From assembly GCF_023612255.1 (NCBI RefSeq), contig NZ_CP063231.1, forward strand, positions 416,001 through 480,000: a stretch of DNA of 64,000 nucleotides, read 5' to 3'. Every line of letters begins with the position of its first letter. Within the stretch, counting starts at the first letter, position 1. Under the pieces are notes generated by a model that made no database searches, was not told where the DNA came from, and was given only the letters and a program-made list of their open reading frames with translations. Source of the DNA: Luteibacter flocculans (GTDB taxonomy: Bacteria > Pseudomonadota > Gammaproteobacteria > Xanthomonadales > Rhodanobacteraceae). A program made the translations under genes and the position numbers. Shown here in pieces: positions 15,776 through 23,817 of the stretch.

Positions 15776-17956
15776 ATGCCGAAGGTCCATACGCTCGCGA
15801 TCGCCATGTCGATCGCTTTCGCCGCCCACGCGTCAGCCAGCGACGCCAGCGCCGCGACGACGGCCGCGTCCTCTGGCGCACCGGCCGCCCAGGCCAAGAC
15901 TGCCAAGGCTTCCCGCATGCACACCAACCCGTTGCTCACGCGCAGCACGCTGCCGTTCCAGGCACCTCCGTTCGACAAGATCGTCGATGCGGACTTCCAG
16001 CCCGCGCTGGAAGAGGGCATGCGTCAGCAGCTCAAGGAAATCGAGGCCATCGCCAATGCGTCGGCCGAACCCACGTTCGACAACACCATCGTGGCGATGG
16101 AGAAGTCCGGCGAGTTACTCAAGCGCACGCAGAACGTCTTCGGTGCGCTGACGGGCGCCAACACCAACGACACGCTGCAGAAGGTCGATGAAGACGAATC
16201 GCCCAAGCTGGCGGCGCACAGCGATGCGATCTACCTCAACGACAAGCTGTTCAAGCGTGTGGAGACGCTCTACCAGAAGCGCGATGCGCTGAAACTCGAT
16301 CCGGAATCGGCGCGCCTGCTCGAGGTGGTCTACCAGGACTTCGTGCATGCGGGCGCGAAGTTGTCGCCGGCCGACAAGCAGCGGCTCAAGGCGATCAACA
16401 AGGAAGAATCGACGCTCAGCACACGATTCTCGAACCAGCTTCTCGCGGCGACGAAGGCCGGCGCGCTGGTCGTAGACGACAAGAAGGCGCTCGATGGTCT
16501 CTCCGACGCCGAGATCGAAGCCGCGGCGCTCGCTGCCAAGGACCGCAAGCTCGATGGGAAGTACGTGATCCCGCTGCAGAACACCACGCAGCAGCCGGAC
16601 CTGCAGGCCATGAACGACCGCGCCACGCGCGAGAAGCTGTTCAAGGCGTCGTGGGAGCGTGCCGAGCACGGTGACGCCAACGACACGCGCGAGATCATCA
16701 CGCGCATCGCGCTGCTGCGCGCCGAGCGCGCGAAGTTGCTCGGCTTCCCCAACTACGCCGCGTGGAAACTCGACGACCAGATGGCGAAGACGCCGGAGGC
16801 TGCCGAGGCCTTCATGGAACGGCTGGCCCCCGCGGCCGTGGCTCGCGCCACCGCCGAATCGAAAGACATCCAGCAGGTGATCGACCAGGAGAAGGGCGGT
16901 TTCCAGGTGCAGGCCTGGGACTGGGATCACTACGCCGAGAAGGTGCGCAAGGCGAAGTACGACCTCGACGAGGCGCAGATCCGCCCCTATTTCGAACTCG
17001 ACAACGTGCTTCAGAATGGCGTGTTCTACGCCGCGAACCAGCTTTACGGCATCACCTTCAAGGAGCGCAAGGACATCCCGGTGTGGCAGCCGGACATGCG
17101 CGTGTTCGAGGTGTTCGACAAGGACGGCACCTCTATGGCGTTGTTCTATTGCGACTACTTCAAGCGCGACAACAAGAACGGCGGCGCATGGATGAGCAAC
17201 CTGGTGGACCAGTCCACGTTGCTCGGCACGAAGCCGGTCGTCTACAACGTCACCAATTTCACCAAGCCCGCGGCGGGCCAGCCGGCGCTGCTGTCGTTCG
17301 ATGACGTAACGACGATGTTCCACGAGTTCGGCCATGCCCTGCACGGCATGTTCGCGGCATCGCGCTACCCCACGCTGTCGGGAACCAACACGGCACGCGA
17401 CTTCGTCGAGTTTCCCTCGCAGTTCAACGAACAGTGGGCGACCGATCCGAAGGTCTTTGCCAACTATGCCAAGCACTACCAGACCGGTGCGCCGATGCCG
17501 GCCGCCCTGGTGGAGAAAATCAAGAAGGCGAAGAGCTTCAATCAGGGCTACGCGATGAGTGAGCTGATTTCCGCCGCCCTGCTCGACATGCGCTGGCACA
17601 TGCTGCCGCCGAATTCGCCCAAGCCCGATGTGGATGCGTTCGAAGCCAATGCGTTGAAGCAGGCCGGCTTCACGTTACCGCAGGTGCCGCCGCGCTACCG
17701 CTCCAGCTACTTTGCGCACATCTGGGGCAGCGGTTACGCCGCAGGTTACTACGCGTACCTGTGGACGCAGATGCTCGACTCCGATGCGTTCGAGTGGTTC
17801 CAGGAGCACGGCGGGCTCACGCGCGAGAACGGCCAGATCTTCCGCGACAAGATCCTCTCTCGCGGCAACACCGAGGAACTTGGCAAGCTCTACCGCGACT
17901 TCCGCGGCAGGGATCCGAGCATCGAGCCGATGCTGAAGGATCGCGGCTTGAAGTGA
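15776..17956 (+). CDS. dcp: periplasmic M3 metallopeptidase (peptidyl-dipeptidase Dcp type)
   Basis: A 726-residue thimet-family zinc peptidase. A signal peptide and Ala-rich spacer (residues 1-45) point to the periplasm, unlike cytosolic oligopeptidase A. The zinc motif HEFGH lies at about residues 516-520 in TMFHEFGHALHGMF, with the downstream Glu in RDFVEFPSQFNEQWA, and RSSYFAHIWGSGYAAGYYAY near the C-terminus matches the Dcp subgroup. It would release dipeptides from peptide C-termini for uptake. It is flanked by hairpins on both sides and appears monocistronic. Confidence 0.9.
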   Translation: MPKVHTLAIAMSIAFAAHASASDASAATTAASSGAPAAQAKTAKASRMHTNPLLTRSTLPFQAPPFDKIVDADFQPALEEGMRQQLKEIEAIANASAEPTFDNTIVAMEKSGELLKRTQNVFGALTGANTNDTLQKVDEDESPKLAAHSDAIYLNDKLFKRVETLYQKRDALKLDPESARLLEVVYQDFVHAGAKLSPADKQRLKAINKEESTLSTRFSNQLLAATKAGALVVDDKKALDGLSDAEIEAAALAAKDRKLDGKYVIPLQNTTQQPDLQAMNDRATREKLFKASWERAEHGDANDTREIITRIALLRAERAKLLGFPNYAAWKLDDQMAKTPEAAEAFMERLAPAAVARATAESKDIQQVIDQEKGGFQVQAWDWDHYAEKVRKAKYDLDEAQIRPYFELDNVLQNGVFYAANQLYGITFKERKDIPVWQPDMRVFEVFDKDGTSMALFYCDYFKRDNKNGGAWMSNLVDQSTLLGTKPVVYNVTNFTKPAAGQPALLSFDDVTTMFHEFGHALHGMFAASRYPTLSGTNTARDFVEFPSQFNEQWATDPKVFANYAKHYQTGAPMPAALVEKIKKAKSFNQGYAMSELISAALLDMRWHMLPPNSPKPDVDAFEANALKQAGFTLPQVPPRYRSSYFAHIWGSGYAAGYYAYLWTQMLDSDAFEWFQEHGGLTRENGQIFRDKILSRGNTEELGKLYRDFRGRDPSIEPMLKDRGLK

Positions 17957-17962
17957 TTCTGC

Positions 17963-17986
17963 CGGGGGCCTCCGAGAGGGGGCCCC
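17963..17986 (+). terminator. imperfect GC hairpin after dcp
   Basis: A G-rich and C-rich pair (about 17964-17971 and 17977-17986) just after the dcp stop can form a stem with one bulge. It also lies between dcp and the convergent DUF2599 gene. Confidence 0.4.
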
Positions 17987-18025
17987 ATCCGTTCAGTCGA
18001 CTGTACGTTGTCCCTGCCGCCTGAT

Positions 18026-18556
18026 TCAGGTTCCGGAAGCTCCCTCGCCGGCATGTTTCGCCGTGGCCGGGTCGCCAGCTTTGCCGGGAATGTAGGGATT
18101 GCACCCTGCATTGTCCGTCGCGTCGTCTCCTACCCACGGTCGATAGGGCTCCAGGTTCCATTCGTCTTTGTCGCGGGCAATGCGCAGGTGGCAAGTCAAT
18201 TGATTGATCATGCCTTTCACGTTCTTCCAACGGTCGCTGGGGCGAGGTCCGCTGCCGAACTGCTCCGGATCGCCATAGAGCTTCACTATCTCGTAGAACA
18301 TGTGGGGCGTGTCGCTGGGGCCGATCCGGCGTCCGCATGCAGTGGGGACGATGCGCAGGCTGGTTTCCCCCCATTGGTCGACAAACCAGCGCGACTCCGC
18401 CGTATTGACGTAAGAAGAGCAGGAGCCTTCCCTCGGCGCTGCCGCGGCGAGTCGTTCGCCGCGCGCGAAGAGAAGCTCGTTCAGAAGTGCCCCGCCTGCC
18501 AGCCCCGCGACGAGGACAAGCAGGCCAACGACCACGCGCCGCATTCTTGTGTCCAT
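18026..18556 (-). CDS. DUF2599 family protein, copy A
   Basis: A 176-residue protein with an N-terminal hydrophobic segment (about residues 6-30) that would act as an uncleaved anchor or signal, then an extracytoplasmic domain. The family-like core is RIVPTACGRRI, GMINQLTCHL, WNLEPYRPWVG and CNP; I recognise this pattern as DUF2599, whose function is unknown. Five Cys in the soluble part suggest disulfides. The AAGGA site seven bases before the ATG supports the start. A paralogue with the same core (copy B) lies 1.3 kb upstream on the same strand, with a ferredoxin and an unknown gene between them. Confidence 0.75.
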   Translation of the reverse strand: MDTRMRRVVVGLLVLVAGLAGGALLNELLFARGERLAAAAPREGSCSSYVNTAESRWFVDQWGETSLRIVPTACGRRIGPSDTPHMFYEIVKLYGDPEQFGSGPRPSDRWKNVKGMINQLTCHLRIARDKDEWNLEPYRPWVGDDATDNAGCNPYIPGKAGDPATAKHAGEGASGT

Positions 18557-18615
18557 GTTCCCATCCTTGGTTTGAAGCGATGTTCGTTCGTACTGCGCGC
18601 ATGGACGAGGTCTCG

Positions 18616-18632
18616 GCCGCAGCCCTTGCGGC
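18616..18632. repeat. REP-like small palindrome
   Basis: A 6-bp stem (18616-18621 with 18627-18632) reading GCCGCAAGGGCTGCGGC on the minus strand resembles another common REP type of this group. It begins exactly where homology of the broken gene copy to its intact paralogue has ended and supplies that fragment's stop codon. Confidence 0.4.
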
Positions 18633-18723
18633 TACCAGCGTATAGCGCCTCCGCGCCACACTATGCCTTGCACTTCCTCCAGCGGCGGCGCGCAATAATC
18701 GATCGTGTGGCGCAGGAGGCTGC
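18632..18723 (-). pseudogene. 3' fragment of the unknown gene at 19180-19770
   Basis: Bases 18647-18723 match 19216-19292, inside the 3' part of the intact gene, at 71 of 77 positions by my alignment, and in the same frame both encode LLRHTIDYCAPPLEEVQGIV. The frame in the fragment is closed upstream by a TGA near 18750 with no start codon after it, and it ends at a TAG in the REP-like palindrome. This is a truncated duplicate, and it sits directly upstream of DUF2599 copy A. Confidence 0.8.
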
Positions 18724-18812
18724 TCTTCTGCGTACGCAGGGGACTTGACCGGGTTCGTCACTCGCCTACCCACGTCAAAAGCCCCCAGTTTGCCTGGAGA
18801 GCCATTTGTTTC

Positions 18813-19109
18813 TTAATAGAGCTCCTCCTCACAATTTGTCTTCAAAACTAAATCGGATGTGGGATACGCAACGCATGTCAATACATATCCTTTCTTTATT
18901 TGCTCATCGTCGAGGAATGATTGGTCGCTCTGATCGACCGTGCCACTGATCAGTTTTGCGGCGCAAGTACTGCAAGCGCCCGCTCTGCATGAATAGGGCA
19001 AATCTACGCCCGCTTCTTCGGCCACATCCAAAATATATTCATCACCGGCTACTTCCAATTTCGCCTCTTCCCCTTCCGGCATTTTCAGCGTCACTTTGTA
19101 TTTGGCCAT
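18813..19109 (-). CDS. chloroplast/cyanobacterial-type [2Fe-2S] ferredoxin
   Basis: A 98-residue plant-type ferredoxin with the four cluster ligands C41, C46, C49 and C79 in [14 protein letters not shown] and [13 protein letters not shown]. The segment [18 protein letters not shown] is close to the photosynthetic ferredoxins of plants and cyanobacteria, unlike the Isc- or oxygenase-type ferredoxins usual in this group. By hand count, G+C over 18811-19110 is 142 of 300 (47%), well below its neighbours, and Lys/Asn codons and AT-rich triplets are frequent, so transfer from another lineage is likely. A GGGAG site precedes the ATG. No reductase or partner oxygenase gene is adjacent, so the electron acceptor is unknown. 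Confidence 0.92.
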
Positions 19110-19179
19110 GTCTTTTGCTCCCGTCCTTGATAGCTGCGGTTCTTCAGCGGGGTGCCCGTGAAGTCATCGATAGGCCCGC

Positions 19180-19770
19180 TTACGGATCGAGCTGAATTCG
19201 GCTGATCCGCATGTTGCCTCCACGCCAGACGATGCCCTGCACTTCCTCCAGCGGCGGTGCGCAGTAATCGATCGTGTGGCGCAGGAGGCTGCCGTCGTGG
19301 GCGCGCGCCACGCGCGGCTTGTGCACGGTCAGTGCCTGCACTTCCGTCAACGTCGTATGCCGCAGCAGGCCAACGTGGACGTCCACTGCGCGGCTTTCCA
19401 GTTCGATGTGGAAGGCCACATGACTGTACGCGTGACGAAACAGGATCTGGCAGGCGTTGCGTAGGCGCAGATTGCCTTCGCTGACGGCGGTTAACGCAAA
19501 GCCGTCCTCCGCCTCCACGATGACGAGCGCCTCGTCGCCCGTGACGACGAGCAGTTCGCCCAGGTCGTGCGTCTGGTTCGCGGCGAGCGTGTGATAAGAC
19601 ACATGCTCGAAACGTTCGAGATGAGGCTTCACGGCCGGCGCGCCTTTGCCTTCAGGCAGCAGGGCCAGCGCACGTTGTGCTTCGTTCGGCGGCTGGCGCG
19701 GGTGGTGCCGCCCTGCTGTTGATATCGGAAAGGGCGGCAGGTGTGCCGCGCCCTGCGTGGGAGCCGTCAT
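19180..19770 (-). CDS. unknown soluble protein, duplicated in part downstream
   Basis: A 196-residue protein with no signal peptide or membrane segment. The first 45 residues are Pro/Ala-rich and probably disordered, and the rest looks like a beta-rich domain (FEHVSYHTLAANQTHDLG, then EALVIVEAEDGFAL). It is rich in His. I do not recognise a family. A strong AGGAGGG ribosome site six bases before the ATG makes the gene real, and the existence of a conserved truncated copy at 18632-18723 shows the frame is maintained. It lies between DUF2599 copy B and the ferredoxin on the same strand. Confidence 0.7.
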   Translation of the reverse strand: MTAPTQGAAHLPPFPISTAGRHHPRQPPNEAQRALALLPEGKGAPAVKPHLERFEHVSYHTLAANQTHDLGELLVVTGDEALVIVEAEDGFALTAVSEGNLRLRNACQILFRHAYSHVAFHIELESRAVDVHVGLLRHTTLTEVQALTVHKPRVARAHDGSLLRHTIDYCAPPLEEVQGIVWRGGNMRISRIQLDP

Positions 19771-19905
19771 GTGAAACCCTCCTTGGCATGGACCGGCATC
19801 CTGCCGGCAATGAACGTGCTCAAGCTAAGCAGTGGTGGGGATCCTGCCGCAATAGACCGGATGACGTAGGCGGTCCGGTTGCGTCATGCGCGGTGCGCGC
19901 GACGC

Positions 19906-20394
19906 CTATTCGAAAGGCGTGTCCGGACGACCGACGCTGGGGTTGCACTCTGCCGCCCAGGTATCGGCGTACCCGACGTAGGGCCGGTCGGGCTCCAGGT
20001 TCCAGGTGGGCTTCTGCGGAAAATTGATCACGTGACAATCGAGCTGGTTGATCATGCCGCGCGTGTTCCGCCAGTTGATATTGCCGCTGAATTTCTCGAT
20101 GACTTCCATATCCAGGCTGTCCCGCTTGGTGAGATCGTCGCTGACCCCTCGCCCGCAGGGCGTGGGCGTGACCTCCAGCACCGGCCCGTATTCGTCGATA
20201 TGCCATTTTCCTGAGGCGACGAAGCCTTCGCCGGTCTGTGCGTCGCACGGTGCCGTTCGACCAAGCCGCGTGCTGTGCCGGGCGTCATCCATGACGCGCA
20301 CGGGCTGGGGGCGAAGCGTGTGTGCGATCCACACGACGAGACCGGCCAGCAACAAGAGAACGATACCCGCGACAGCGATGCCTGATGCTTTCAT
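19906..20394 (-). CDS. DUF2599 family protein, copy B
   Basis: A 162-residue protein with an N-terminal transmembrane anchor (about residues 5-27) and an extracytoplasmic domain sharing with copy A the core EVTPTPCGRGV, RGMINQLDCHV, WNLEPDRPYVG and CNPS. The linking residues differ greatly, so the two copies are old paralogues rather than a recent duplication. The ribosome site is AAGGAT eight bases before the ATG. Function unknown; the conserved Cys, Trp and Arg-Pro positions suggest a compact secreted domain. Confidence 0.75.
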   Translation of the reverse strand: MKASGIAVAGIVLLLLAGLVVWIAHTLRPQPVRVMDDARHSTRLGRTAPCDAQTGEGFVASGKWHIDEYGPVLEVTPTPCGRGVSDDLTKRDSLDMEVIEKFSGNINWRNTRGMINQLDCHVINFPQKPTWNLEPDRPYVGYADTWAAECNPSVGRPDTPFE

Positions 20395-20480
20395 GACGTT
20401 TCATCCTTGAGGTCATGGTGACGTGGCGCTTCCAGCGCACGTGACGAGCATAGCGACTTGCGCGTCGTTGGCGGCGGCGC

Positions 20481-20515
20481 AAAAAAAAGCCCCTTCCCAT
20501 CGCCGGGAAGGGGCT
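20481..20515 (-). terminator. intrinsic terminator of putA
   Basis: On the minus strand an 11-bp stem (20505-20515 with 20488-20498) is followed by eight T residues, starting 30 bp after the putA stop. This is a strong rho-independent terminator. Confidence 0.9.
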
Positions 20516-20545
20516 TCGTTCCGGCGTGCCGGAAACGCTTTGCGA

Positions 20546-23500
20546 TTACTCGCCGATCGTAAGCAGCGAGGCGTTGCCGCCCGCCGCCGTCGTGTTGATC
20601 GTGAGGGTGCGCTCGCCCGCGAAGCGGAGCAGGTAGTGCGGACCGCCCGCCTTCGGGCCGGTGCCCGACAGGCCTTCGCCGCCGAACGGTTGCACGCCCA
20701 CCACAGCACCGATCTGGTTGCGGTTGACGTAGCAGTTACCCACGCGTGCGCGGCTCTGGATGAACTCGATGGTGTCGTCGATGCGGCTGTGGATGCCCAG
20801 CGTCAGGCCGAAGCCGGTGCCATTGATCTGATCGACCACCTTCTCCAGCTCCGAGCCCTTCCAGCGGATCACGTGCAGCACCGGGCCGAAGATTTCGCGG
20901 GTGAGCGTCTGCAACGACGGGATCTCGTAGGCGCGCGGCGCGAAGAACGTGCCGTTGGCCGTCGATTCCGGCAGCGGAACCTCGGCGATCTTCTTCGCCT
21001 CGCGATCCATGCGTGCCACGTGATCGACGAGGATCTTGCGCGCATCCTCATCGATAACGGGACCGACATCCGTCGACAGCAGGCCCGGATCGCCGACCTT
21101 CAATTCAGCCATGGCGCCGGCAAGCATGTCGATCACCTTGTCGGCGATGTCTTCCTGCACGAACAGCACGCGCGCGGCCGAGCAACGCTGACCGGCCGAC
21201 TGGAATGCCGAGGAAATCACATCCTTGACGATCTGTTCCGGCAGCGCGGACGAGTCGGCGATCATGGCGTTCTGACCGCCGGTTTCGGCGACCAGCGCTG
21301 CGATCGGTGCGTTGCGCGCGGCGAGCGCGCGGTTGATCGCCCACGCGGTTTCCGTCGAACCGGTGAAAGCCACGCCGGCCACGCGCGGATCGCGGGTCAG
21401 CGCCGCGCCCACGGTGCTGCCATCGCCCGGCAGGAACTGCAGCACGTCGGTGGGGATGCCCGCGGCATGCAGAAGCTTCACCGCCAGGTAGCCGATGAGC
21501 GAGGTCTGCTCGGCCGGCTTCGCGATCACGGCATTGCCCGCCGCGAGTGCGGCGGCGACCTGGCCGAGGAAGATGGCGAGCGGGAAGTTCCACGGGCTGA
21601 TGCAGACGAACACGCCGCGGCCATTGAGGAACAGCTGATTGCTTTCGCCGGTGGGGCCGGGCAACTGCTCGGGCTGGCCGAACAGGCGACGCGCCATCGT
21701 GGCGTAGTAGCGCAGGAAGTCCGCGGCCTCGCGGATCTCGGCGATGGCATCCGGCAGGCTCTTGCCCGCTTCGCGCACGCATAGCGCGATGAACTCGGCG
21801 CGGTTGTGTTCGAGCTGCTCGGCCGCGTGCTCGAGGATGGCCGCACGGCTCGCCGCCGGCAGGCGATCCCAGCCCGGCTGCGCCTTCACGGCAGCGGCGA
21901 GGGCGTGGTCGACGAGCGCGGCGTCGGCATTCTCGACGGTGCCGATGATGCGGCGACGGTCGGACGGATCGGTAACCTCGACCTTGGCGCCGGACGTGGC
22001 ATGGCCCGCGACGAGCGGTGCAGCGTTCCAGGGGCCGCTGTGGCGGTTGATGGCGTCGGCGAGTTCGTTGAGCTCGTTGTCGTTAGCGAAGTTCATGCCC
22101 ATGGAGTTCTTCCGAAGTTCACCGTAGAGATTGACCGGCAGGGGAATGCGCGGGTGGGGAATGGAGGCGAAGCCGCGCACGATCTCGCACGGATCGGCGA
22201 CCAGCTCGCGCACCGGCACGCTCTCGTCCACCACGCGGTTGACGAAGCTCGTGTTGGCGCCGTTCTCCAGCAGGCGACGGACGAGATACGGCAGCAGGTC
22301 CTCGTGGCTGCCCACCGGCGCGTAGACGCGGCAGGGCACGTTGAGCTTGTCCTTGCCGATCACCTCGGCGTAGAGATCGGCGCCCATGCCGTGCAGGCGC
22401 TGGTTCTCGTACGGCCGACCCTTCGCGATGTGATGAATGGCTGCGATGGTATGCGCGTTGTGCGTGGCGAACTGCGGGTAGATGAGGTCGCTGCCTGCGG
22501 CGAACAGGCGCTGGGCGCAGGCGAGGTAGCTGACGTCGGTATTCGGCTTGCGCGTGTAGACCGGGTAGCCCGACAGGCCGTTCTCCTGCGCGCGCTTCAC
22601 CTCGGCGTCCCAGTAGGCGCCCTTCACCAGGCGCACGAACCAGCGGCGGCCGGTGGCACGCGCCTTCTCGGTCACCCAGTCGATGACGAACGGTGCGCGC
22701 TTCTGGTACGCCTGGATGACAATGCCCAGGCCGTTCCAGCCTTCCAGCGACGGGTGTTCGAAGACGTCGCCGATAATGTCGAGCGACAGCTCCAGGCGAT
22801 CGGCTTCCTCGGCGTCCACCGAAAGCGCGATGCCGTTCTTGTAGGCGAGCTGCGAGAGTTCGAGAAGCTTCGCGCCGAGTTCCGCGCGGGCACGGGCACG
22901 GTTCGCCACTTCGTAGCGCGGGTGCAGGGCGGACAGCTTCACCGAGATCGACGGCGCTTCCAGATTGTTCGGGAAGGGGCCGCGGGCGCCCAGGGCGTTG
23001 ATGGCGTCGCGGTAGTCCTGCTGGTAGCGCTCCGCGGTGGCCTGGGTGAGCGCCGACTCGCCGAGCATGTCGTACGAGTAGCGATAGACCGCATGCTCCT
23101 TCTCGGCGGAACGGTCGAGCGCTTCCTTGATGGTGCGGCCCATGACGAACTGGTGACCCATAATTCGCATGGCCTGGCGCACGGCGAGACGAACCACCGG
23201 CTCGCCGGCACGGCCCACGAGGCGACGCAACGCGGAGGTGAAGTCGTGGCGGGTTTCCTCGGCCAGATTCACCAGGTGGCCGGTGAGCATCAGGCCCCAG
23301 GTGGAGGCGTTGACGAACAACGACTCGCTCTGGCCCAGGTGCTTCTTCCAGTCCGCCTCGCCGAGCTTGTCGCGGATGAGCTTGTCGGCGGTGGCCTTGT
23401 CCGGAATGCGCAGCAGCGCCTCGGCCACGCACATCAACAGCACGCCTTCCTCGGACGAGAGGTCGTACTGACGCATGAACGACTCGACGGCGCTCTGGTC

Positions 23501-23698
23501 CTTGGCGCGTGCGCGGACGCGGGTGACCAGGCCGGCGGCCACGTCGATCACGTGCTCGCGCTCGGTCGGGGGCAGGGTGGCCTGGGCCAGGAGGTCGTTG
23601 ACGGCCTCGGTTTCGTCGCGCAGCCAGGCGGCCGTGATGCGCGCACGCGCCGGCTCGACGCCGGTCGGGAGTTCGGGACGGAGGATGGTCGGGTTCAC
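20546..23698 (-). CDS. putA: bifunctional proline dehydrogenase / glutamate-semialdehyde dehydrogenase
   Basis: A protein of about 1050 residues that oxidises proline to glutamate in two steps, with an FAD proline dehydrogenase barrel (about residues 130-480, e.g. GIALSVDAEEADRLEL, WFVRLVKGAYWDAE) and an NAD aldehyde dehydrogenase (about 530-1040) with catalytic Cys near 839 in SAGQRCSAARV and the Glu in AETGGQNAM. The protein begins VNPTILRPELP at a GTG, position 23698; no ATG fits and the ribosome site is weak. The N-terminal ribbon-helix-helix repressor domain of E. coli PutA is missing, so it should not regulate its own gene. No putP is adjacent. Confidence 0.95.
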   Translation of the reverse strand: MNPTILRPELPTGVEPARARITAAWLRDETEAVNDLLAQATLPPTEREHVIDVAAGLVTRVRARAKDQSAVESFMRQYDLSSEEGVLLMCVAEALLRIPDKATADKLIRDKLGEADWKKHLGQSESLFVNASTWGLMLTGHLVNLAEETRHDFTSALRRLVGRAGEPVVRLAVRQAMRIMGHQFVMGRTIKEALDRSAEKEHAVYRYSYDMLGESALTQATAERYQQDYRDAINALGARGPFPNNLEAPSISVKLSALHPRYEVANRARARAELGAKLLELSQLAYKNGIALSVDAEEADRLELSLDIIGDVFEHPSLEGWNGLGIVIQAYQKRAPFVIDWVTEKARATGRRWFVRLVKGAYWDAEVKRAQENGLSGYPVYTRKPNTDVSYLACAQRLFAAGSDLIYPQFATHNAHTIAAIHHIAKGRPYENQRLHGMGADLYAEVIGKDKLNVPCRVYAPVGSHEDLLPYLVRRLLENGANTSFVNRVVDESVPVRELVADPCEIVRGFASIPHPRIPLPVNLYGELRKNSMGMNFANDNELNELADAINRHSGPWNAAPLVAGHATSGAKVEVTDPSDRRRIIGTVENADAALVDHALAAAVKAQPGWDRLPAASRAAILEHAAEQLEHNRAEFIALCVREAGKSLPDAIAEIREAADFLRYYATMARRLFGQPEQLPGPTGESNQLFLNGRGVFVCISPWNFPLAIFLGQVAAALAAGNAVIAKPAEQTSLIGYLAVKLLHAAGIPTDVLQFLPGDGSTVGAALTRDPRVAGVAFTGSTETAWAINRALAARNAPIAALVAETGGQNAMIADSSALPEQIVKDVISSAFQSAGQRCSAARVLFVQEDIADKVIDMLAGAMAELKVGDPGLLSTDVGPVIDEDARKILVDHVARMDREAKKIAEVPLPESTANGTFFAPRAYEIPSLQTLTREIFGPVLHVIRWKGSELEKVVDQINGTGFGLTLGIHSRIDDTIEFIQSRARVGNCYVNRNQIGAVVGVQPFGGEGLSGTGPKAGGPHYLLRFAGERTLTINTTAAGGNASLLTIGE

Positions 23699-23817
23699 TT
23701 GGGTGTGTGGGCACGGGGGAGACCGCCCATTGTAAGGGTGCGGGGCCCTTCGTGTGTTGTTGCGATGCGGTGCGGCCCGCGCGGGGCCTGGGTGCGACAA
23801 CGCGCCGTCTTCCAACC

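Follow-up and report, generated by a model that had tools for sequence, protein, structure and literature searches.

How a gammaproteobacterium came to carry a ferredoxin of the kind found in cyanobacteria and plants, and what use it makes of the protein, is the question raised by a short gene of Luteibacter flocculans (genome G000). We analyzed a window of 64,000 nucleotides around it. The gene is an intact open reading frame on the minus strand at exactly 18813-19109, running from an ATG to a TAA and encoding 98 residues. Its assignment as a plant/cyanobacterial-type [2Fe-2S] ferredoxin gene draws on the ORF, Pfam, NCBIfam, an alignment, and a structural model. The Pfam Fer2 domain was matched at E=1.9e-24, and the protein scored 156 bits against NCBIfam TIGR02008 (fdx_plant), above the curated cutoff of 81.15. 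The cluster cysteines C41, C46, C49, and C79 (C-x4-C-x2-C-x29-C) are all present and were invariant when aligned with 16 cyanobacterial rows. A sequence-only reading that preceded this work had described a 98-residue protein with this full signature, and the ORF, TIGR02008, and the alignment bear it out.

The model of the protein had a pLDDT of 85.7 overall and of 63 in residues 41-50 (the cluster loop). Its best fold match was 2pvg_C, a ferredoxin in complex with ferredoxin:thioredoxin reductase (TM 0.93); the further structure matches were cyanobacterial and plant ferredoxins, and the fold is of the plant type. The ORF stops at residue 98 with no fused toxin domain of the pectocin type, and no signal peptide was seen by eye. 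The rest of the genome gave a single further match at E<=0.001, 34% identical and inside a 506-residue frame. Contamination as the source of the gene was ruled out by the single 4.3-Mb contig and by the relatives that have the same leader.

The composition of the gene is foreign to its surroundings. Its G+C content is 47.1%, and its third-position G+C is 0.51, against about 0.7 to 0.9 in the majority of the window's listed large ORFs; the earlier estimate of 47%, far below the surrounding coding DNA, was thus accurate. Codon usage, which the sequence-only reading had proposed comparing, also marked the gene as foreign. A codon score was trained on 23 ORFs of the window; on it, the ferredoxin gene scored -0.434, under all 920 of 920 random 97-codon stretches drawn from those same 23 ORFs (minimum, -0.259; median, 0.42). 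Its neighbors, described below, scored 0.24 (ORF196), 0.13 (DUF2599 copy a), and -0.02 (DUF2599 copy b).

The distribution of the ferredoxin is patchy. At E<1e-20, matches were obtained in 3 of 233 family genomes, all from one genus (23 genomes): G000 itself and two sister species, G117 and G107, whose proteins are 67% and 64% identical to that of G000. The next best family match after these three carriers was at 5.5e-15, inside a 370-residue frame, and the close relative G123 lacks the ferredoxin (best match, 1.7e-11). Samples of the order (398 genomes) and the class (369 genomes) held nothing below 1e-20 besides the same three genomes. In a phylum sample (398 genomes, queried with a sister copy) and 394 genomes of the order of genome G1181, the sole other genome below this threshold was G1181; the family, class, order, phylum, and G1181-order samples overlap, so that these counts are not additive. 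Matches in heterotrophs from the class, order, and phylum samples were 42 to 51% identical.

Such a pattern might also arise if a native ferredoxin had been passed down vertically and then lost from most relatives, and Fer2 matches as such are widespread in the family (195 of 233 genomes at E<=0.001). However, the other family Fer2 matches among the rows listed were 33 to 48% identical, nearly all in frames of about 350 residues or more, the codon usage is foreign, and the gene occupies two different loci in its carriers. Within the genomes sampled, vertical native inheritance is already refuted, and we give it virtually no credence. The sequence-only reading had named a native ferredoxin vertically common to the family as the outcome that would speak against it and had proposed a survey of presence and absence; in the sampled genomes, that survey found no such ferredoxin.

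G1181, which we take to be Pectobacterium-like from its FusA and FusC operon, has several proteins of this kind. One (L257:8067-8399) is a relative of plant-type ferredoxins with all four cluster cysteines replaced. It is encoded in a phage tail cluster, between a gene that we read as tail-tube-like (PHROGs: 'head closure') and a tape-measure gene. Two more, L255:8072-8371 and L256:8109-8447, are free plant-type ferredoxins; one is encoded near ORFs whose products appear from sequence to be secreted and pectate-lyase-like, and one is close to the pectocin heads.

To whom the Luteibacter ferredoxin is closest emerged from a pattern scan of an 84,980-species genome collection, which gave at least 538 confirmed relatives. 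The best 80 of these were cyanobacterial without exception (80/80) and were 71 to 78% identical. For a 42-row tree, the cyanobacterial rows were thinned to one in three and the phage rows to one in eight; L256, L257, four distant rows from heterotrophs, and one cyanobacterial row from the PDB were omitted. In this tree, the ferredoxins of G000, G107, and G117 formed a clade (support, 92/96) that was joined to cyanobacteria (93/85); the phage copies came next (95/82), with plants and pectocin heads outside. A 135-row quick tree, which included the distant rows L136-L138 and the Paracoccus row L239, gave no support for the three-copy clade. AU tests on the 42-row set rejected none of three groupings of the copies: with plants and pectocins (p 0.168), with pectocins alone (p 0.265), or with phage (p 0.156).

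The first of these p values speaks for a plant donor, as proposed for FerE of Pectobacterium, in place of a cyanobacterium. The plant structures listed are only 59 to 67% identical to the Luteibacter ferredoxin, though, which is less than the best 80 cyanobacterial relatives; in the 42-row tree, a split with support of 95/82 sets plants and pectocins apart from the focal, cyanobacterial, and phage rows, and the focal rows fall with the cyanobacteria; and the gene has neither introns nor a transit peptide. We regard a plant donor as quite unlikely. Delivery by a phage that carried petF as an auxiliary gene appears highly improbable to us. The ferredoxin does match PHROG 844 (E=2.7e-42), 271 of 288 matching phage records are 60 to 80% identical, and grouping with the phage rows was not rejected. 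Against this, the phage rows form a group of their own in both trees (support, 87 with 135 rows and 88/80 with 42 rows), 278 of the 288 matching records are named Synechococcus, Prochlorococcus, or cyanophage, and no relative was confirmed among viral contigs in a pattern scan based on the sister copy. Neither ORF196 nor either DUF2599 protein had a PHROG match. The ferredoxin query also matched eight Acinetobacter phage records and one Salmonella phage record.

The gene would thus almost certainly have been gained laterally from a cyanobacterium-like source, and the sequence comparisons favor, without proving, a cyanobacterial over a plant donor. Horizontal transfer, the explanation given in the sequence-only reading, is well supported by the cyanobacterial identity, the 3 carriers among 233 genomes, the codon usage, and the absence of the gene from the corresponding interval in relatives (below). 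The donor, which that reading had left as plant or cyanobacteria related, narrows toward cyanobacteria on the 42-row tree, with a plant source not rejected by the AU test.

The gene lies in different places in its carriers. In G000, it is in an islet between bioD-M3 peptidase and PutA-CoxB. The conserved borders are the M3 peptidase (PF01432; plus strand, 15776-17956) on the left and PutA (proline dehydrogenase/aldehyde dehydrogenase; PF01619 and PF00171; minus strand, 20546-23815) on the right. Between them, all on the minus strand, are two DUF2599 proteins, copy b (18026-18556; PF10783, E=1e-16) and copy a (19906-20394; PF10783, E=3.7e-19), and ORF196 (19180-19770), a fast-evolving protein of 196 residues with homologues in 21 of 23 genus genomes. 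No reductase or oxygenase adjoins the ferredoxin, just as the sequence-only reading had it. ORF196 matches occur in 20 genomes besides G000, and the M3 peptidase-PutA interval was compared in 19 of them, all but G113. The M3 peptidase, an ORF196 homologue, and PutA were all in place in 19 of 19, the DUF2599 genes come and go, and the ferredoxin was in none of the 19, G107 and G117 among them.

In G107 and G117, the ferredoxin gene is instead between groEL and a sulfatase-domain gene. Of 22 genomes, 20 allowed this gap to be sized (in G116 and G112, groEL falls outside the stretch; G113 was left out). It spans 128 to 3448 bp, and G107 and G117 alone have a ferredoxin in it; the G000 gap, 427 bp long, is without one. 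The varying size and content of this gap, and the comings and goings between the M3 peptidase and PutA, indicate that both places are variable islets. The groEL-sulfatase gap is an insertion hot spot, with a Tlde1-domain protein (PF10908) and a small adjoining ORF in G107 and G123 and a 66% identical relative in G124 (L113:8097-8929, L284:1620-2332, and L296:2694-3191).

ORF196 and the ferredoxin are flanked by the two DUF2599 proteins, which are diverged from each other. The ORF196 family (L220-L238) holds a fixed place in the 20 genomes compared; its members are 32 to 65% identical to the G000 copy, against about 80 to 96% for the bordering M3 peptidase and PutA, and share the conserved motifs LLFRHAYG and QGIVWRGG. 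ORF196 had no Pfam match at E<=0.001 (19 members gave scattered weak Pfam matches) and no PDB profile match, and its model alone was too poor for use (pLDDT, 43). On the start side of the ferredoxin gene, ORF196 lies 70 nt upstream on the same strand, and the two are possibly cotranscribed. An orphan fragment on the other side (18635-18739, minus strand) is the 3' end of an ORF196 copy, with 77% amino acid identity over residues 155 to 189. Nucleotide comparison showed that a 77-nt repeat flanks the ferredoxin, at 18647-18723 and, as an intact copy within ORF196, at 19216-19292 (minus strand), with 92% identity between the two. The orphan copy is 77 to 80% identical over 99 to 100 nt to sequences of G123, G107, and G117, and other relatives have shorter pieces only, so its nearest relative is the ORF196 of its own genome. 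The orphan fragment and repeat were likely produced by recombination within the islet.

What the two loci share is confined to the gene and a short leader. Nucleotide alignments place this leader, common to the three ferredoxin genes, at 19110-19184 on the minus strand, with a length of at least 57 nt and about 75 nt in all. BLASTN alignments of the ferredoxin genes extend into it as far as window position 19166 (G117) and 19165 (G107), and over the 57 nt before the start 43 of 55 (G117) and 41 of 54 (G107) aligned bases are identical. Random windows scored as well in 0 of 2000 cases for G117 and 2 of 2000 for G107; these windows came from the loci themselves, and some may cover the true position. 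There was no similarity between the loci 75 to 150 nt upstream or within 75 nt past the stop. When the leader by itself was the query against 23 genomes, no match other than its own sequence fell below E=0.001, and the sister leaders did not come up at E<=0.1, so the homology is modest. A structured leader was rejected, its folding being no better than that of shuffles in the three genomes (z 0.05, 0.04, and 1.03). No Rfam family reached its gathering score in 17500-20600, where two weak matches were seen at 20481-20593. A scan of 18600-19900 gave no promoter-like site and one terminator-like site, inside ORF196 (1.2 expected). A possible terminator is the hairpin past the ferredoxin stop, whose folding was equaled by 6 of 200 shuffles (z -1.92).

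The three ferredoxins also share residues. C93 is common to them and in 0 of 132 other rows, cyanobacteria usually having a lysine or glutamine there; A51 is in the three and 10 of 132 others and L89 in the three and 9 of 132, with both in 0 of 67 cyanobacterial contig rows. From the shared leader and the exclusive C93, we infer that the three copies descend from one lateral gain and were later moved or lost. Synonymous divergence between G000 and the sisters is 0.95 to 1.18 for the ferredoxin, compared with 0.49 to 0.51 for PutA, 0.75 to 0.77 for the M3 peptidase, and 0.94 to 1.27 for ORF196. These values fit one gain in the clade ancestor, later movement, and loss in G123, and the ferredoxin value indicates that the acquisition is not very recent. 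The three copies nevertheless have G+C contents of 45 to 50%, which, at a synonymous divergence of about 1, is hard to square with a long stay in a G+C-rich genome. On the G107 branch, 18 substitutions were toward G or C and 5 the opposite way; on the G117 branch, 5 and 8.

Selection on the gene was assessed from dN/dS, which was 0.42 between the sister copies and 0.22 to 0.27 between the sisters and G000; for the genes around the sister ferredoxins, it was 0.05 (sulfatase) and 0.15 (groEL). Of 48 columns that cyanobacteria and plants conserve, the G000 protein keeps 46 and departs at 2. The sister proteins depart at 10 and 12 of the 48 (S40 included, the shifted first Met excluded), where cyanobacterial rows depart at no more than 1 and phage rows at 4.8 on average; this points to looser constraint in the sister copies than in cyanobacteria. 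Could the gene then be a mere passenger, islet cargo that is translated or not, brings no present benefit, and has not yet decayed? Its variable islet, the adjoining orphan fragment and 77-nt repeat, the lack of a promoter-like site in the scanned region, the foreign composition, and its absence from G123 are what such cargo would show. The three copies, however, are intact after synonymous divergence of 0.4 to 1.2, with dN/dS of 0.22 to 0.42, and all keep the four cluster cysteines. We consider the passenger explanation unlikely.

The sister copies carry A50V and G51A, changes also seen in the heads of pectocins M1 and M2; on sequence grounds, this is a possible parallel change once photosynthetic partners were gone. 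It could also hint that the ferredoxin surface serves not in electron transfer but as a ligand or decoy for an outer-membrane receptor, or is the relic of a bacteriocin head. Pectobacterium reuses a plant-type ferredoxin as such a head (PMC3302902); the sister copies evolve fast; and both homes are variable islets, that of G107 with the Tlde1-domain protein and its small adjoining ORF. An interaction role of this sort is, however, very unlikely in our judgment. No toxin domain is fused, the redox center is kept, and no signal peptide is apparent. A relative of FusA was found in 0 of 23 genus genomes at E<=1e-30, with a query that is FusA by PDB match; as the search included no positive-control genome, this empty result shows little. 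M16 domains number 4 each in G000, G107, G117, and G123, whether the ferredoxin is present or absent, and the one G000 protein compared is only 27% identical over 213 residues to FusC. Iron piracy of the Fus type was rejected on the same FusA and M16 counts, and the role with plant-derived iron that the sequence-only reading had floated gains no support.

We think it probable that the protein is a laterally acquired, cyanobacterial-type [2Fe-2S] ferredoxin that works as a soluble electron carrier, perhaps with a use under stress. An ancestor of a small clade in the genus would have gained the gene together with its short leader, and it would since have come to rest in one of two variable islets, M3 peptidase-PutA (G000) or groEL-sulfatase (G107 and G117). 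The protein is predicted to hold its cluster in the cytoplasm, to take electrons from a putative host NADPH-ferredoxin reductase of the FPR type, and to pass them on to one or more host enzymes. A reductase of this type is suggested since the reductase-facing surface is kept: F65, D67, D68, E94, and E95, which we take to be the residues in reductase contact in Anabaena ferredoxin, are all present in G000 (G107 has F65Y and E95K). Residue numbering was fixed by the PDB titles of the Anabaena mutants D68K, E94K, and E95K. Judged from sequence, the most likely role is thus that of a working carrier fed by the putative host NADPH reductase, and by analogy with FerE the likeliest use would be a benefit under oxidative or iron stress. 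A cytochrome P450 was rejected as the common partner; P450s are in 9 of 23 genus genomes, with one in G000 (two matches in one frame) and none in G107 and G117.

A bolder version, which we hold to be unlikely, is that the ferredoxin is now a mobile, fast-evolving cassette (the leader of about 75 nt plus the gene) that moves between effector-type islets. It would have gained a lineage-specific fifth cysteine beside the reductase-binding E94 and would be leaving photosynthetic electron transport for a new function, in redox chemistry or in interaction; the Pectobacterium ferredoxins would be a parallel case with a different donor.

No report of a plant-type ferredoxin in Luteibacter or Rhodanobacteraceae was among the open-access literature matches listed. 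Among heterotrophs, plant-type ferredoxins were at one time described as seemingly unique to Pectobacterium (PMC3302902). In PMC5322553, the tree of photosynthetic ferredoxins includes a few from proteobacteria and actinobacteria as well, so proteins of this kind are already known. Our results add a further lineage of gammaproteobacteria, in which three copies have diverged and close relatives are without the gene, and so extend a phenomenon known mainly from plant soft-rot bacteria. The lineage offers a natural comparison for the task that an electron carrier of photosynthesis takes on in a cell that presumably lacks photosystems, and for which residues are freed once the photosynthetic partners are gone (G51 is changed both here and in the pectocin heads).

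Among known systems, PetF (ferredoxin I) of cyanobacteria has the same length, fold, four cysteines, and reductase-facing residues and, in the best 80 of at least 538 relatives, the identity given above; the Luteibacter ferredoxin differs in being in a proteobacterium and in having G51A, I89L, and the added C93. Cyanophage petF (PHROG 844) has the same domain, with 61 to 72% identity in the rows listed, and is a separate group in both trees. Haloarchaeal ferredoxin is likewise photosynthetic-type outside phototrophs (PMC5322553 and PMC8928951) and is about 40 to 51% identical in the plasmid rows listed. The heads of pectocins M1 and M2 are the same domain reused in a heterotroph and have A51 in common with the Luteibacter ferredoxin, which, in contrast, has no toxin domain and is found in a genus whose 23 genomes gave no FusA match at E<=1e-30. 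Like FerE of Pectobacterium, the Luteibacter ferredoxin is a single-domain plant-type ferredoxin that is patchy among relatives. In PMC3486870, FerE is plant-type, was laterally gained by a heterotrophic gammaproteobacterium, is patchy, and lies in a small island; it is reported to raise oxidative stress tolerance and to affect fitness in planta. FerE is also reported there to be closest to plant proteins. In the 42-row tree, the Luteibacter ferredoxins branch with cyanobacteria, although the AU test does not reject a grouping with plants and pectocins, and the Pectobacterium-like ferredoxin L255 and the pectocin heads branch on the plant side.
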